Positions 21,954-41,626 of a DNA stretch of 51,106 nucleotides are shown here, piece by piece. Both the position numbers and the translations under genes were made by a program. A model generated the notes under the pieces. That model did no database searches. It saw only the letters and a program-made list of their open reading frames with translations, and was not told the origin of the DNA. The stretch is from an uncultured Chloroflexota bacterium (GTDB lineage Bacteria > Chloroflexota > Anaerolineae > Anaerolineales > Villigracilaceae), in assembly GCA_903914955.1 (NCBI GenBank), contig CAIWRB010000457.1, forward strand, positions 1 to 51,106, read 5' to 3'. Positions within the stretch are counted from its first letter, which is position 1. Each line of letters starts with the position of its first letter.

Positions 21954-24900
21954 TTAGCTGACTTTTCTAACTCCAATTTTTACCTTTTCTCCTTCAAACT
22001 CATCTTCCACAATAGATGATTTCTCCGGGGGCATTGCAAAGGACAAATTGGATGTGAGTGTTTCAGATGTGATGTAATCCTTGTGTGCTTCAATAGCAGA
22101 CCGAAGCCCTGTTGTGGCCTCGATGAACATTTCTATGCGATCAGCGACATCCAACTCGGCGGCCTTGCGCAGATCCTGCACACGACGGACGAATTCACGC
22201 GCCAAGCCTTCCTGCGCAAGTTCAGGCGTCAGATCAGTGACGAGGGCCGCGACATAAGCGCCTTCTTCTGCCACTGCGAAACCTTCCTTTGCCATCGCCT
22301 TGACTTCGACTTCATCAGCCAAAATATTATATGTTTCGCCGCCTGCGTCCACCACAAGCGCCCTGCCTGAGTGAAGAGTCTTCGCGACTTCTTCTGCATT
22401 CATAATGAGGATGGCTTTTTGAATGGCGGGATATTTATTGCCATATTTTTGTCCGAGCTGCTTCGGCAATGGCTTGGCAGAGTGAGTCAATGCTTCAGTG
22501 GATGCGTCCAGCAAACGGACTTGCTTCACGTTGAGTTCATCCGCGATGACTTCGGCGTAGGTTGAGACTGCTTTGCGTTCTGCAGGAGTGCTGACCGAGA
22601 ACGCAGCAGAAGCCAACGGCTGACGCACTTTGCGATTCGCCTTTTGGCGGGCGGAATGTCCGAGCGAGACGAGACGCATAACCAATTGCATTTCGCGATT
22701 GAGCGTTTCATCAATAAATTCTTCCATTGTCTCAGGCCAGTCAGCGAGATGCACAGACTCGGGGGCGGTCTCATCCACAGAACGGACAAGGTTCTGATAC
22801 AACTCTTCCGCAAAGAACGGCATGGCAGGCGCAAGTAATTTTGCCACGGTTGTCAACGCGGTGTAGAGCGTGGAGTACGCGCCTTGCTTATCAGTGCCTG
22901 AGTCATTCTTCCAAAAGCGGCGGCGTGAGCGGCGTACATACCATGTTGAAAGTTGCTCCACAAATTTCTCAACAGGACGCGTGGCATTTAACACGTCATA
23001 GGTTTCATATGCCTGAGTCACGTCACGGACGAGCACATTCAGTTCTGAAAGCAACCAGCGATCGAGATCGTTCGTTGGCGCAGTGACAGTCAATGCTTGA
23101 GGGTTGTCGAGATTGGCGTATGTCACAAAGAATGAATACACGTTCCAAAGCGTAAGTGTAAAACTGCGGATCACGTCCCCAACCAGGTCGGCGGAGAAGC
23201 GGCGTTCCTGTCCAGGAGGTGATGCGGTGTAGAGATACCAGCGCAAAGCGTCGGCGCCGTGTACATTTAAGACATCCCAGGGCTGAACAATGTTTCCCAA
23301 AGACTTCGACATCTTGCGCCCTTCGGCATCCTGAATGTGACCAAGGCAGATGACATTCTTGAATGAAACTTCATCATTGAGCAAGGTACTGATGGCATGC
23401 AGTGAATAGAACCAACCGCGAGTTTGATCCACGGCTTCGCAGATGTAATCCGCTGGATATTGGCGGGCAAATTGTTCCTGATTTTCAAATGGATAATGCC
23501 ACTGGGCAATAGGCATGGATCCAGAATCAAACCAGACATCGATCAAGTCTGGTACGCGAGTCATTTTTCCGCCGCAGTTGACGCACTTCCATTGAACTTC
23601 ATCCACGTATGGGCGATGTAAATCCAATTCGCTTAAATCCCTGCCAGCTTTTTCGGAGAGCTCCGCCACAGAGCCCACGCACTCGCGATGAGTGCAATCC
23701 ACGCACTCCCAAACAGGAAGCGGCGTGCCCCAATATCGTTCGCGCGAAAGCGACCAGTCAATATTATTTTCAAGCCAGTTGCCAAAACGTCCGCTCTTAA
23801 TGTGATCGGGAACCCAGTTGATGGTGTTGTTCAATTCAACAAGGCGGTCACGATGAGCGCTGGTGCGGATGAACCAAGAGTCGCGCGCGTAATACAAAAG
23901 CGGAGTATGACAGCGCCAGCAGAACGGGTACGTGTGTGTATATTTCTCGGTGCGGAATAATAATCCACGCGCATCCAGGTCCTGGATGATGAGCGGATCA
24001 GCGTCCTTGACAAAGACTCCTCGCCAGGGAGTGACCTCAGGGATGAATGTTCCGTCGGGCAAGACGGTCATCAACACTGGCAGGTCATGCTCCTTTGCCA
24101 GTTGCATATCTTCCTGGCCAAAAGCAGGAGCGATGTGTACAAGGCCAGAGCCATCATCAGTGGTGACGAAATCACCAAGGGCCACAAAATGCGCGGGTTT
24201 ATCTGGAGGCAGAAAAGTAAAGAGTGGATGATATTTCATGCCCTTTAATTTCTTGCCTTTGAAAGTTTCCAAAACTTTTACTTCTTCATCCTTGAATAAT
24301 TTTTCAACCAAAGACTTGGCGAGGATGAGTTTCTCTTTTGTACCGCCGTTATCGCGCTCGATAGTCACATAATCTACATTGGCGTGCGCGGCGACAGCGA
24401 CGTTGCCGGGTAGGGTCCAAGGGGTAGTCGTCCACACTAATAACGAAGTGTCCGGTTTATCTACCAGCGGCATGCGAACAAAAACCGAAGGGTCGGATAC
24501 TTCCTCATAACCGAGAGCAACTTCATGGTCAGAAAGAGGCGTGCCGCAGCGCGGGCAATAAGGGACAACCTTGTAGCCCTTGTAAAGCAAATTTTTATCC
24601 CAGAAGTTTTTGAGGATCCACCAGACCGATTCCATATATTCATTTTCGTAGGTCACATATGCGGTTTCCAAGTCAACCCAGAAGGCGATGCGGTCTGTCA
24701 GACGTTCCCATTCTTGAATATAAGTAAAGACAGAGTCTTTACATAGCGCGTTGAATTTATCTATGCCATATTCTTCGATCTGCTGTTTGTTGTTGAAACC
24801 AAGTTGTTTCTCAACCTCGATCTCAACGGGCAAGCCGTGCGTATCCCAACCGCCGCGACGAGAGACGTGATAACCGCGCATGATCTTGTAGCGTGGAAAC

Positions 24901-25103
24901 ATATCCTTGAAGGCGCGTGCCAACACATGATGAACACCCGGGCGTCCATTCGCAGTGGGAGGTCCTTCATAAAATACATACTCGGGTTTCCCTTTGCGCT
25001 GCTCAACTGTCTTCTTGAAAACATCCTGTTTTTTCCATAATTTCAGAATGTTTTCTTCCATCGAAGACACATCCAGCCTTGGTAATACCGATTTAAAAGT
25101 CAT
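21954..25103 (-). CDS. ileS: isoleucyl-tRNA synthetase
   Basis: A class I aminoacyl-tRNA synthetase of 1049 residues that charges tRNA-Ile. The HIGH region reads PPTANGRPGVHHVLA (48-62). GRKMSKSLGN gives the KMSKS loop. Zinc-ligand-like CxxC pairs occur in the insertion (WECVDC, WKCVNCGG). Length, the GVHH form and these cysteines fit the eukaryotic-like IleS2 type rather than the shorter bacterial IleS1, and IleS2 enzymes are often mupirocin-insensitive. That inference was not tested. Expression is controlled by the T-box in the leader. Confidence 0.95.
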   Translation of the reverse strand: MTFKSVLPRLDVSSMEENILKLWKKQDVFKKTVEQRKGKPEYVFYEGPPTANGRPGVHHVLARAFKDMFPRYKIMRGYHVSRRGGWDTHGLPVEIEVEKQLGFNNKQQIEEYGIDKFNALCKDSVFTYIQEWERLTDRIAFWVDLETAYVTYENEYMESVWWILKNFWDKNLLYKGYKVVPYCPRCGTPLSDHEVALGYEEVSDPSVFVRMPLVDKPDTSLLVWTTTPWTLPGNVAVAAHANVDYVTIERDNGGTKEKLILAKSLVEKLFKDEEVKVLETFKGKKLKGMKYHPLFTFLPPDKPAHFVALGDFVTTDDGSGLVHIAPAFGQEDMQLAKEHDLPVLMTVLPDGTFIPEVTPWRGVFVKDADPLIIQDLDARGLLFRTEKYTHTYPFCWRCHTPLLYYARDSWFIRTSAHRDRLVELNNTINWVPDHIKSGRFGNWLENNIDWSLSRERYWGTPLPVWECVDCTHRECVGSVAELSEKAGRDLSELDLHRPYVDEVQWKCVNCGGKMTRVPDLIDVWFDSGSMPIAQWHYPFENQEQFARQYPADYICEAVDQTRGWFYSLHAISTLLNDEVSFKNVICLGHIQDAEGRKMSKSLGNIVQPWDVLNVHGADALRWYLYTASPPGQERRFSADLVGDVIRSFTLTLWNVYSFFVTYANLDNPQALTVTAPTNDLDRWLLSELNVLVRDVTQAYETYDVLNATRPVEKFVEQLSTWYVRRSRRRFWKNDSGTDKQGAYSTLYTALTTVAKLLAPAMPFFAEELYQNLVRSVDETAPESVHLADWPETMEEFIDETLNREMQLVMRLVSLGHSARQKANRKVRQPLASAAFSVSTPAERKAVSTYAEVIADELNVKQVRLLDASTEALTHSAKPLPKQLGQKYGNKYPAIQKAILIMNAEEVAKTLHSGRALVVDAGGETYNILADEVEVKAMAKEGFAVAEEGAYVAALVTDLTPELAQEGLAREFVRRVQDLRKAAELDVADRIEMFIEATTGLRSAIEAHKDYITSETLTSNLSFAMPPEKSSIVEDEFEGEKVKIGVRKVS

Positions 25104-25175: not shown

Positions 25176-25460
25176 AAAAAATAAAAGCTCCCGTCTCAAT
25201 GCAGAGACGAGAGCCATGCTCACGCGGTACCACTCTGATTCCCGTCTCGCGACAGGTGCTCAACCAAAGACAATTATCTTTGTTCCCGCATAACGTTGGG
25301 CTAACGGCTCTCTTACTTTTAGTGAGAAACTCGCTAATTTCAGTTCACTGCTCCGAGATGATTTTCAATTTGTTTTGTTAATCTGTCTCTCACCTGTCAC
25401 AGACTCGCTGGCAACAATCACGCAAATTTACTCGTTCTCATCAATGCTTTTGATTGGCAG
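25176..25460 (-). promoter_or_regulatory. T-box riboswitch (isoleucine)
   Basis: The minus-strand leader of ileS contains the T-box core AGAGTGGTACCGCG (25236-25223), the antiterminator bulge that pairs with the NCCA end of uncharged tRNA. Next is a strong terminator with a T-run (25216-25176, arms CTCTCGTCTC/GAGACGGGAG). Upstream are stem I-like elements GATGAGAACGAGTA and, at 25366-25357, the word GAAAATCATC. The latter offers AUC, an Ile codon, as specifier. Uncharged tRNA-Ile would favour readthrough and raise IleS. Confidence 0.9.
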
Positions 25461-39325: not shown

Positions 39326-39369
39326 ACTGTAAAAAAACGCCCGCCAAATGGTGGGCGTTTTTTTACAGT
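39326..39369. terminator. Rho-independent terminator after the pseudopilin cluster
   Basis: A 20-bp inverted repeat with one weak pair (39326-39345 and 39350-39369, loop AAAT) has an A-run and a T-run on its arms. Confidence 0.9.
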
Positions 39370-39374
39370 ATAAT
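39369..39374 (+). promoter_or_regulatory. possible glmS -10 box
   Basis: TATAAT directly follows the terminator stem. The -35 would lie within the hairpin and is weak. Transcripts would start about 50 bases before the ribozyme cleavage site. Confidence 0.4.
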
Positions 39375-39430
39375 CCCGCCATTCAAAAAAAATGGAGGTG
39401 GAGCAAAAATATAAAACAAATGGGAAAGTC

Positions 39431-39663
39431 AGCGCATGGACTTTAGTGATTCACTAAAGTTGACGAGGATGAAGGTTCTCCAATGCAAAATGGAGTTAAT
39501 CTTGTAACTCTTGAAACCTATCAGGCTCAAGAGTGGCGAGAGAAAATCGAACGATCAGCGGAAGCCTTCCGGGTACGCCAAACCCGTCAAATCTTTCCCT
39601 CCAAAGAAAACTTTGCCAACAACACCCGTGAGCGATCGCGCGGTCAAATGGCAATGTGTGGCA
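39431..39663 (+). ncRNA. glmS ribozyme (glucosamine-6-phosphate-responsive) with large insertion
   Basis: The RNA matches the glmS ribozyme core in order: AGCGC at the cleavage site (39431/39432), P1 arms ACTTTAGTG/CACTAAAGT, then TTGACGAGG (39460-39468), GAAGG (39471-39475) pairing with CCTTC (39565-39569), ATCGAACGATCAGCGG ahead of that, the P3 hairpin CGGGT/ACCCG (39570-39586) and a P4-like stem TTGCCA/TGGCAA. Between GGTT and ATCGA lies an extra segment of about 65-70 bases with its own hairpins (CTCTTGA/TCAAGAG, TTCTC/GAGAA). It precedes glmS and would self-cleave when GlcN6P is high, lowering GlmS. Confidence 0.8.
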
Positions 39664-39784
39664 AAAAAAGGAAAGGCAAGAAGTAATTAGAAAAAAAATG
39701 GAATAGGTGATCAGGAATAAAATCACCCAATCCCTAATTCCTAATTACCTATTCTCTAATCTATTTTTCGGAGGACTCCCAATT

Positions 39785-41626
39785 ATGTGTGGAATCGTCG
39801 GATATGTTGGCCCGCGTGACGCGGTGTCTATCATCCTAAATGGCCTGAAAAGACTGGAATACCGCGGCTATGACTCAGCTGGAGTGGCTGTCATTAATGG
39901 CAACCAGATCGAAGTCAGAAGAGATGCGGGTAAGTTATCGCAATTGATCGATCTTGTGAGCAAATCCCCGCTCCAGGGTGCGCCGGGCATTGGGCACACG
40001 CGCTGGGCTACACATGGCGCACCGTCTGCTCGAAATGCGCATCCGCATGTTGGAAATACAGGAAAAGTCGTTGTAGTGCATAACGGCATCGTGGAAAATT
40101 TCCTTGAGATCAAAGATGAAATGATGGCTGAAGGTGTGAATTTCCTTTCAGAGACCGACACAGAAACTATCGTACATCTGGCTGAACATCATCAGGCGGC
40201 TGGAGTCAATTTTGTAGAAGCGGCGCGGCGTACTTTCAAACAGATCGAAGGCGCAAATGTGGTGCTACTCATGTCCGTGGATGAACCGGAAAAAATTGTA
40301 ACTGCGCGCATCGGCAACGCGGGCGGAGTGGTAATCGGATTGGGCGAAAATGAAAACTTTATCGCGTCAGACATTCCCGCCATTTTGGAACACACGCGCA
40401 AAGTGATATTTTTGGAATCACGCCAAATGGCAATTATCACACGCGACAGCGTGCGCATTGAAACACTCGAAGGCGTGGAAGTATCACCTGAAATTCACAC
40501 CATTGCCTGGGACGCGGTCGCCGCTGAAAAAGGCGAATACCGCCACTTCATGCAAAAGGAAATTCATGAGCAAGTACGCGCACTGACAGATACACTAGCT
40601 GGCCGCGTGGATTTCAAAGAGGGGCGCATTAGTCTTCCAGAATTAAATCTCACACCCGAAATCGCCAAACGAATTCAACGCATTTACATCACCGCCTGCG
40701 GAACTGCCGCGTATGCCGGCATGGTCGGAAAATATCTAATTGAAAAGATCGCGCGCATTCCCGTCGAAGTTGTCATCAGTTCCGAGTTCCGTTACAGCGA
40801 CCCGATCGTGGATGAAAACACGGTCGTGTTGGCCATCTCGCAATCTGGAGAAACCGCCGATACGCTGGCCGCCATGGAAGAAGGTCGACGCAAGGGCGGC
40901 ATCATCTGGAGCATTGTCAACGCGATCGGATCACAAGCCATGCGCGTCTCGGATGGGATCATCGCGATGCAAACGGGACCTGAAATTGGGGTGGCGTCTA
41001 CGAAAGCATTCACTGCGCCGTTGGTTGACCAGTACATGCTTGCGATATTACTCGCAGACCTTCGAGGCACAATTGACGAAAAGACCCGCAAAGCGCTGGT
41101 CGCGGATTTGCGCCTTGTCCCTGATCTAGCTGGCCGAGTACTGGATACAGAATCAGAAGTTGAGAAAGTGGCTCATGCATTAAAAGACATTACAGGATGT
41201 CTCTATCTGGGACGCGGCATCAACATGCCGATCGCTTATGAAGGTGCGCTCAAACTCAAAGAGATTTCCTACATCCACGCCGAAGGCTATCCCGCGGGAG
41301 AAATGAAACACGGCCCGATCGCGTTGATCGATGAGGAAATGCCCGTACTGTGCATTGCTCCAAAAGACCCGTGGCATGAGAAAATGATCTCGCAGATCCA
41401 ACAGGCAAAAGCGCGCGGCGGCATGGTGATCGCTGTGGCAACTGAAGGCGACGAATTGATCCAAGGTATGGCTGATCATGTGTTATGGATTCCCGAAGCG
41501 CCGTGGATGCTGTCACCGATATTGACAGTGCTACCGTTGCAGCTTCTCGCCTATCACATCGCTGCCATCCGCGGGCTGGATGTTGACCAGCCGCGAAATC
41601 TCGCCAAGAGTGTGACGGTAGAGTAA
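39785..41626 (+). CDS. glmS: glutamine--fructose-6-phosphate aminotransferase
   Basis: This 613-residue enzyme makes glucosamine 6-phosphate from fructose 6-phosphate and glutamine, the entry to amino-sugar and peptidoglycan synthesis. The N-terminal nucleophile is Cys2 in MCGIVGYVG. The glutaminase domain (HTRWATHGAPS) is followed by two SIS isomerase domains (ITACGTAAYAG; AISQSGETADT), and the C-terminus LAKSVTVE is canonical. The start at 39785 has GGAGG. The ribozyme upstream is its regulator. Confidence 0.97.
   Translation: MCGIVGYVGPRDAVSIILNGLKRLEYRGYDSAGVAVINGNQIEVRRDAGKLSQLIDLVSKSPLQGAPGIGHTRWATHGAPSARNAHPHVGNTGKVVVVHNGIVENFLEIKDEMMAEGVNFLSETDTETIVHLAEHHQAAGVNFVEAARRTFKQIEGANVVLLMSVDEPEKIVTARIGNAGGVVIGLGENENFIASDIPAILEHTRKVIFLESRQMAIITRDSVRIETLEGVEVSPEIHTIAWDAVAAEKGEYRHFMQKEIHEQVRALTDTLAGRVDFKEGRISLPELNLTPEIAKRIQRIYITACGTAAYAGMVGKYLIEKIARIPVEVVISSEFRYSDPIVDENTVVLAISQSGETADTLAAMEEGRRKGGIIWSIVNAIGSQAMRVSDGIIAMQTGPEIGVASTKAFTAPLVDQYMLAILLADLRGTIDEKTRKALVADLRLVPDLAGRVLDTESEVEKVAHALKDITGCLYLGRGINMPIAYEGALKLKEISYIHAEGYPAGEMKHGPIALIDEEMPVLCIAPKDPWHEKMISQIQQAKARGGMVIAVATEGDELIQGMADHVLWIPEAPWMLSPILTVLPLQLLAYHIAAIRGLDVDQPRNLAKSVTVE

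Follow-up and report, generated by a model that had tools for sequence, protein, structure and literature searches.

A glmS ribozyme with a covarying two-hairpin insert and a putative leader strand switch in Chloroflexota, and a sister class before nitrogen-assimilation genes

The glmS leader and its ribozyme core

The window analyzed here is a 51,106-nucleotide stretch from an uncultured Chloroflexota bacterium (order Anaerolineales, family Villigracilaceae; assembly GCA_903914955.1, contig CAIWRB010000457.1, positions 1 to 51,106 of the forward strand), and the element under study is a glmS ribozyme situated in the 5' leader of glmS (39785-41626). An Rfam scan of the whole window returned two matches over the cut-off, a T-box (25200-25453, minus strand) and the glmS ribozyme family RF00234, the latter at 39420-39666 on the plus strand over model positions 1-167, with E = 4.4e-6 and 40.3 bits where the gathering score is 37. 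An earlier note on this DNA had listed the elements of the ribozyme, in order, upstream of glmS; this significant match, with the motifs at the places given there, bears the identification out. A covariance model containing the insert described below scored the window at 112.7 bits, the window being 1 of its 43 training sequences. The core motifs TTGACGAGG (39460-39468), AAAATCGA (39543-39550), and CAGCGGAAGCC (39556-39566) follow one another in order (coordinates re-read by script), the conserved core (AGCG, ACGAGG, UCGA, and GCGG, with the P2.1 and P2.2 pairings) is present, and so is the periphery formed by the P3/P3.1 pseudoknot and P4. Among 34 sequences P3.1 was 95.6% paired, with double-sided changes in 3 of its 4 pairs. 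The catalytic guanine is presumed to be 39465 by the numbering in PMC11602151 and PMC7125110. The features of the locus are compiled in Table 1.

In PMC7125110, P2.2 is numbered as C2-G56, G3-C55, C4-G54, and C5-G53 with a bulged A6. The corresponding partners in the window are C2-G56 (39560), G3-C55 (39559), and C4-G54 (39558), and A5 lies opposite A53 (39557). The earlier note had described this third core pairing and considered it weakened; the description stands, whereas the weakening does not hold in comparison with relatives. A core pattern that left positions 4-7, 25, 26, 46, and 53 free gathered 196 distinct elements from 293 loci plus the window (labels of the form L### and G### for loci and genomes, and C339 for a contig, are identifiers used within this analysis). 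Of these elements 116 are C4-type, and in them A5 goes with A53 in 94/94 cases and C5 with G53 in 22/22, while G26 occurs in all 116. Because 94 of the 116 carry A/A, the A5/A53 of the window is the commoner of two coupled states.

A two-hairpin insert between P2 and P2.1

In the window 68 nucleotides (nt) separate GGTT (39474-39477) from ATCGA (39546-39550), and in the Rfam alignment 77 window bases stand against 10 consensus positions between the P2 5' strand and GCGG; the segment of about 65 to 70 bases with two hairpins that had been reported between these motifs is thus accurately described. We aligned 43 sequences, hand-chosen from matches to a core pattern, with MAFFT (alignment A1; 9 of them belong to the R4-type sister class introduced below). 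P1, P2, and the insert hairpins A and B were paired in 90.1% of cells, compared with 64.4% in shuffles and 36 to 56% when the strands were slid, and they held 306 double-changed cells against 98 in shuffles. A hairpin A with a GNRA cap and a stem of at least 5 pairs was found in 142 of 195 elements and in 4 of 975 shuffled inserts. The covariation among these relatives shows hairpins A and B to be real RNA structure, and hairpin A, usually GNRA-capped, may serve as a docking stem.

The distribution of the insert was followed in three sets of genomes. Among 301 genomes of the same order, 198 had an RF00234 match at E ≤ 0.001 and 96 had one over the cut-off; nearly all glmS-type leaders of the order caught by a core pattern read GGTT, hairpin A, YTAA, hairpin B, GAAAATCGA, NNN, and ATCAGCGGA, and a single insert stem was seen in L010. 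A pattern scan of named genomes, mostly metagenome assemblies, demanded a long spacer and gave at least 120 stretches, of which 80 were listed. The insert model R1 matched 58 of these 80 at E < 1e-9 (56/56 with a Chloroflexota title and 2 others), and the remaining 22 were taken as chance pattern matches. Among the 22 named loci with a classification, the R1-matching Chloroflexota fell into the classes Anaerolineae, Caldilineae, Chloroflexia, and Thermoflexia. An occurrence of the insert outside Chloroflexota was rejected: among 24 listed loci with other titles, two matched, L105 (a Spirochaetaceae metagenome-assembled genome) and L135 (a Paludibacter one), and mis-binning of both is likely since their glmS is 67.9% and 69.5% identical to that of the window.

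In a 400-genome sample of the phylum, R1 matched 127 genomes. Split by match length, a measure in which a few of the long ones are partial, the 148 matches comprised 99 that span at least 111 nt and 49 that span 80 to 94 nt, and the split followed families except in f41, with 17 short matches and 1 long, and in f91, with 1 of each. Twenty short-match loci (L300-L319) were fetched, and like the insert-bearing ribozymes they precede a glmS homologue (20/20, at 31.6 to 51.1% identity); the 14 caught by pattern have 21 to 23 nt where the insert would be, and they keep the coupling of positions 5 and 53 in 14/14 (8 C/G and 6 A/A, one of the latter with G4). The comparison of leaders shows a strongly covarying insert that recurs in the glmS ribozymes of three classes, Anaerolineae, Caldilineae, and Chloroflexia, whereas the remaining Chloroflexota families in the sample are for the most part without it. 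The earlier note was therefore correct in seeing a variant outside Firmicutes with extra structure, here two insert stems on a glmS-type core; it is common to a large lineage rather than a one-off.

Two other explanations of this segment were weighed. It might be a mobile or repeat sequence that landed by chance in the ribozyme of one genome, and hairpin B does vary in length and sometimes has repeat-like sequence; this was rejected as highly improbable on the constant position of the insert across the lineage and the compensatory changes in both stems, to which the GNRA cap can be added. The 67-codon open reading frame (ORF) at 39483-39686 might encode a leader peptide. The frame is open, 12 of 23 relatives have TTG as the corresponding codon, and 4 of the 23 have no stop within the 70 codons read; the homologous start is ATG in 1 of 24 same-family leaders, that of the window itself, and in 19 of the other 23 the frame meets a stop after 9 to 60 codons. 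With neither start nor frame length conserved and with the catalytic core overlapped, a leader peptide was rejected and deserves hardly any credence, in keeping with the earlier judgement that this ORF is probably not a gene.

Long-range helix P0 and the pyrimidine segment

The list of parts in the earlier note stands as far as it goes, but the RNA reaches further: 39422-39428, upstream of the cleavage site, can pair with 39593-39599 in a helix, P0, that is kept in relatives. The plain minimum free energy fold of the window contains P0. As the length of P3 varies, P0 was judged by partner-swap and positional controls and not by MAFFT columns. For 92 non-redundant C4-type elements, the longest Watson-Crick stem that the upstream 15 nt can form with the segment after P3 averaged 6.49, against 3.45 to 3.97 in off-site windows, and 0 of 300 partner swaps reached this value (swapped maximum, 5.08). 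In 44 R4-type elements it was 5.39, against 3.16 to 3.82 off-site and a swapped maximum of 5.16 (0/300). Pairing is preserved despite different sequence in L017 (TGTGGAAGG/CCTTCCACA), L031 (GGCAAAT/ATTTGCC), L054 (AAGGATAA/TTATCCTT), and L055 (ATGGGAAT/ATTCCCAT). Unlike these, the 14 pattern-caught Chloroflexota ribozymes without the insert show P0 at background level (3.57, against 3.93 to 4.50). The existence of P0, joining the 5' leader to the post-P3 segment, is supported by this covariation.

The 3' strand of P0 belongs to a pyrimidine segment that is also complementary to the glmS Shine-Dalgarno sequence. In 99 non-redundant glmS leaders the best partner of this segment lies at about -24 to -4 of glmS (5.78, against 3.88 to 4.46 elsewhere), and it matches its own Shine-Dalgarno region at 5.71 compared with 5.20 for swapped regions (maximum, 5.49; 0/200). 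An alternative pairing of the pyrimidine segment with the Shine-Dalgarno sequence is thereby supported statistically.

From homology, plentiful glucosamine-6-phosphate (GlcN6P) would bind a preformed pocket, and the leader would cut itself between 39431 and 39432, which would lower glmS expression. Before cleavage 39422-39428 would be paired with the pyrimidine segment in P0; after cleavage the short 5' fragment could leave and set CUUUCCCUCC free, an order of events that we infer, and the freed strand could cover the Shine-Dalgarno sequence of glmS and block translation. Decay of the 5'-hydroxyl product by an RNase J-type enzyme would act alongside; the window's genome encodes a homologue of TIGR00649 (586.7 bits, over the cut-off), which we take to be the RNase J family. 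The element probably represents a Chloroflexota subclass of the glmS ribozyme that is functional and has a P0/Shine-Dalgarno strand switch.

Several observations weigh against this proposal. The Rfam margin is thin, because a whole-genome search in another set-up scored the window locus at 36.4 bits, just under the cut-off of 37, and with strict filters 103 of the 301 genomes of the order were without an RF00234 match at E ≤ 0.001. The relatives were gathered by core patterns, so that bases fixed in the pattern are conserved by selection and the invariance of patterned bases is partly built in, and regular expressions miss divergent members. P0 amounts to just 3 to 4 bp in 15 of 92 C4-type and 11 of 44 R4-type elements. 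Exact CCTCC is present in 61 and GGAGG in 71 of the 99 glmS leaders, and both in only 55; CCUCC is, moreover, complementary to Shine-Dalgarno sequences in general, and relatedness, not fully removed, may inflate the partner-swap tests.

The element could instead be an ordinary glmS ribozyme in which the extra stems and P0 merely stabilize the fold and control is purely RNase J decay, as in Bacillus. The conserved core and the RNase J-family homologue in the genome are consistent with this, and P0, present in the plain minimum free energy fold, could simply close the RNA; such stabilization does not account for the better match of the pyrimidine segment to its own Shine-Dalgarno region than to swapped ones, nor does it predict that in the sister class this segment goes with GGAAGG beside a terminator. 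We consider it possible, at somewhat less than an even chance. A non-cleaving RNA that acts as an aptamer switch, for GlcN6P or another ligand, through P0 and the pyrimidine segment is unlikely: P0 would make a classical two-state expression platform and the cleavage-side strand of P2.2 is altered in R4-type copies, whereas the window matches RF00234 and keeps A-1, G1, C2, G3, ACGAGG, U43-C44-G45, and G54-G57, and the coupling of positions 5 and 53 points to a maintained P2.2.

Beyond the ribozyme, the interval from it to the Shine-Dalgarno sequence (39687-39769) is A/T-rich with inverted GAATAGGT/ACCTATTC-like repeats, as seen by eye. The T-box at 25200-25453 (minus strand; 106.5 bits) is ordinary and lies upstream of ORF 21954-25103 on the same strand, which, from its sequence rather than from a family search, we take to be isoleucyl-tRNA synthetase-like.

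Table 1. Features of the glmS leader in the window
Feature	Coordinates	Strand	Basis or remark
Possible -10 element TATAAT	39369..39374	+	Directly past the terminator of the upstream gene; by eye; no strong -35 seen
P0 5' strand GGGAAAG, 3-9 nt upstream of A-1	39422..39428	+	Complement CTTTCCC at 39593-39599
Predicted cleavage site A-1/G1	39431..39432	+	Homology to glmS; AGCG also within the pattern that collected relatives
P2.2 5' strand C2 G3 C4 (39433-39435), A5 (39436), U6, G7	39433..39438	+	
P1 hairpin	39440..39460	+	Covarying in 43-sequence alignment A1; 86.3% of cells paired
Core ACGAGG: A27, C28-G29-A30 of P2.1, presumed catalytic guanine 39465	39463..39468	+	Complementary to U-C-G 39547-39549
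P2 5' strand GAAGG	39471..39475	+	Partner CCTTC 39565-39569; 90.7% of cells paired
Insert hairpin A, GCAA (GNRA) loop	39478..39495	+	Double-sided changes in 6/6 pairs; 89.6% paired
Probably spurious 67-codon ORF inside the ribozyme	39483..39686	+	Open frame; start and frame not conserved
Insert hairpin B, length differs among species	39500..39541	+	Double-sided changes in 5/5 pairs; 95.7% paired
AAAAUCGA: cofactor-pocket strand and P2.1 3' strand	39543..39550	+	Columns invariant across the 43 sequences of A1; outside the collecting pattern
CAGCGGAAGCCTTC: P2.2 3' strand (A53-G56) and P2 3' strand	39556..39569	+	
P3 hairpin, loop GCCA (39577-39580)	39570..39586	+	Loop forms pseudoknot P3.1 with TGGC 39659-39662
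Pyrimidine segment CTTTCCCTCC after P3	39593..39602	+	3' strand of P0; also complementary to the Shine-Dalgarno of glmS
P4 domain, internal loop, GCGA (GNRA) tip	39607..39656	+	RF00234 alignment; alignment A3; predicted fold
Shine-Dalgarno GGAGG of glmS	39770..39774	+	Sequence; in relatives the pyrimidine segment is most complementary to this region
glmS, glutamine-fructose-6-phosphate aminotransferase, 613 amino acids	39785..41626	+	SIS and glutamine amidotransferase domains

A sister class upstream of nitrogen-assimilation genes

Thirteen of the fetched second or odd RF00234 matches lacked a downstream glmS; the gene that follows is glutamine synthetase in 10 of them and glutamate-synthase-like in 3. 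Most non-glmS copies read AGCG-R-CUG (AGCGRCUG, here R4-type), a form shared by 78 of the 196 elements. Because AGCGRCTG and ACGAGGTGRAGG were fixed in the pattern by which many later R4-type loci were fetched, only the other positions are informative; the class is mostly pattern-found, with 70 loci read (30 returned and 40 fetched) among the matches listed. By definition R4-type elements have no C4-G54 pair in P2.2. Position 26 is G in 38, C in 18, T in 16, and A in 6, position 46 is A in 46 and G in 32, position 53 is A in 78/78, and position 7 is G in 77/78. A bulge-shifted P2.2, with R4 bulged and pairs C5-G54 and U6-A53, is possible in all 78, without covariation since A53 is invariant. 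In the R4-type tails, of which 33 of 77 were aligned, P3 was paired in 99.5% and P3.1 in 83.6% of cells with double-sided changes, and P4 is also kept. The RF00234 cut-off of 37 bits was reached by 10 of 37 R4-type loci scanned (7/17 and 3/20). On a quick tree with the trait columns removed (193 rows), the R4 trait requires 3 label changes against 60 when shuffled, so one main origin is likely, many forks being weak.

The two types differ in the genes they serve, the gene served being the first recognized protein within 2.6 kb. C4-type elements (n = 116, window included) precede glmS in 107 cases, glutamate synthase in 2, and glnA in 1, with 6 contigs too short. R4-type elements (n = 78) precede glnA in 50, eamA followed by glnA in 2, glutamate synthase in 7, ada with or without eamA in 15, and glmS in 2, with 2 too short. 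Pfam searches on example genes returned Gln-synt, a methylguanine methyltransferase with an AraC-type helix-turn-helix, Glu_synthase, and EamA. L138 (Thermoflexales) and L194 are R4-type by rule yet lie upstream of glmS. Conversely, L031 and L064 have canonical AGCGC-type ribozymes directly before glutamate-synthase-like genes, not glmS (by Pfam for L064), and these copies suggest that GlcN6P itself can serve nitrogen genes. For a possibly changed ligand in the R4 class, the "snuggler" variants of PMC10043782 provide a comparison. In Anaerolineaceae UBA6133 (L108, 1085-2812) an R4-type ribozyme, glnA, a C4-type ribozyme, and glmS are arranged in tandem. tRNA-Sec genes were seen near R4-type glnA leaders on the opposite strand (L054, 2775-2867; L288, 2980-3072).

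The R4 pattern occurred in 91 of 301 genomes of the order and in 35 of 112 genera (backward control, 0 in the rows seen). In a 400-genome phylum sample it was present in 14/36 genomes from the order, in 0/19 from the rest of the class, and in 1/345 from elsewhere; this last one (G414) was judged to be chance, since the backward control also matched in 2 genomes, and an R4 class outside the order was therefore rejected. The window's genome has its own R4-type element (C339:24163-24327, minus strand, 67 bits), which lies in a one-strand cluster of 6S RNA, R4-type element, ada, eamA, and glnA, the 6S RNA being the only such match in the genome. A reading of this copy as an orphan was rejected, as glnA lies 2.3 kb downstream on the same strand behind ada and eamA.

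In 12 of the 37 R4-type loci scanned (L073, L060, L254, L260, L264, L265, L266, L267, L268, L270, L273, and L208), a 6S RNA (RF00013) closely precedes the ribozyme on the same strand. The idea that R4-type elements process 6S RNA was rejected: 60 of 77 have a promoter-like site of their own (at least 9/12), against 40 of 385 shuffles, which makes independent transcription more likely. The -10 of these sites ends 17 to 55 nt before A-1, and L060, with a 6S RNA close by, has no such site. Among C4-type elements a promoter-like site was found in 38 of 114, against 53 of 570 in shuffles.

Terminators in the R4-type leaders

Of 76 R4-type leaders, 55 have both CCTTCC behind P3 and GGAAGG in the linker, 3 have one of the two, and 18 have neither; none of 113 C4-type leaders has both, and shuffling of R4 linkers produced GGAAGG in 66/1120. 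Leaders were scanned with a fixed script rule for intrinsic terminators located between the ribozyme and its gene, which identified them in 35 of 76 R4-type leaders, against 1 of 110 C4-type leaders (0 of the 107 before glmS); mononucleotide-shuffled leaders gave 1/760 (R4) and 0/1100 (C4). The R4 number may be an undercount, because each scan stopped at the farthest-upstream in-frame start found and some R4 leaders were thereby shortened. By gene, terminators stand before ada in 13/15, glnA in 18/50, glutamate synthase in 4/7, and others in 0/4. All 35 terminator-bearing leaders have the CCTTCC/GGAAGG pair. The stretch starting from the GG(G) of this pair is complementary to the 5' arm of the terminator with a mean duplex energy of -14.4 kcal/mol, compared with -12.8 for swapped (best of 200, -13.8) and -7.0 kcal/mol for shuffled controls; the copy in the window's own genome has the weakest of these antiterminator duplexes (-8.7).

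We tentatively propose, at less than even confidence, that in Anaerolineales the R4-type RNA arose as a duplicate of the glmS ribozyme, that its P2.2 bulge shifted from position 6 to position 4, and that it became an attenuator which cleavage triggers and which controls transcription of nitrogen-assimilation genes. Either GlcN6P or a new ligand would cause self-cleavage near the 5' end of the leader and the short fragment would depart; the freed pyrimidine segment would then pair with GGAAGGG and take the GGG that the antiterminator needs, so that the terminator could form ahead of glnA, of glutamate synthase, or of the ada-eamA-glnA cluster. In the glmS copy the same pyrimidine segment would act on the Shine-Dalgarno sequence instead. 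Because 41 of 76 R4-type leaders show no terminator by the script rule, attenuation may not be the sole mode of this class.

Discussion

Compared with the Bacillus/Thermoanaerobacter form described by RF00234, the Chloroflexota ribozyme has the same core motifs, the same P1, P2, P2.1, P2.2, P3, P3.1, and P4 with its GNRA tip, and the same place in the glmS leader. What it adds is the 68-nt two-stem insert between P2 and P2.1, and P0, whose 5' strand corresponds to an end that is unpaired in the Rfam consensus. McCown et al. (2011) reportedly described glmS variants from Deinococcus-Thermus whose catalytic core likewise holds additional stems, and reportedly placed all but two glmS ribozymes in glmS mRNAs; we therefore claim no priority for the insert. 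Searches of a collection of openly licensed papers, by title and opening of the abstract, gave no description of the insert, of P0, or of a glmS-type ribozyme that lies upstream of glnA.

Other RNAs are associated with the same nitrogen genes. According to PMC2864571, the glnA RNA motif precedes glutamine synthetase and glutamate synthase genes in Cyanobacteria and marine samples, and it and the Downstream-peptide motif are riboswitch candidates; the R4 class likewise stands before genes for these two enzymes. No match to RF01739 over the cut-off was obtained in the 37 R4-type loci scanned.

Among metabolite-using ribozymes, glmS is the standard example. PMC7824784 describes the class as predominantly Gram-positive, with a preorganized site, and as acting via mRNA decay, its 5'-hydroxyl product being degraded by RNase J1 in B. 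subtilis. On the present reading, ribozymes of a large lineage carry in addition a covarying expression platform to which the leaving strand belongs, and a sister class is placed on glutamine and glutamate synthesis. If this is true, self-cleavage would be coupled directly to translation or termination, and genes would be switched by strand release rather than by mRNA decay. The R4-type RNA would then be a natural bulge-shifted glmS ribozyme or an altered-ligand variant, and GlcN6P may be a nitrogen-assimilation signal that links the amino-sugar level to glutamine supply.
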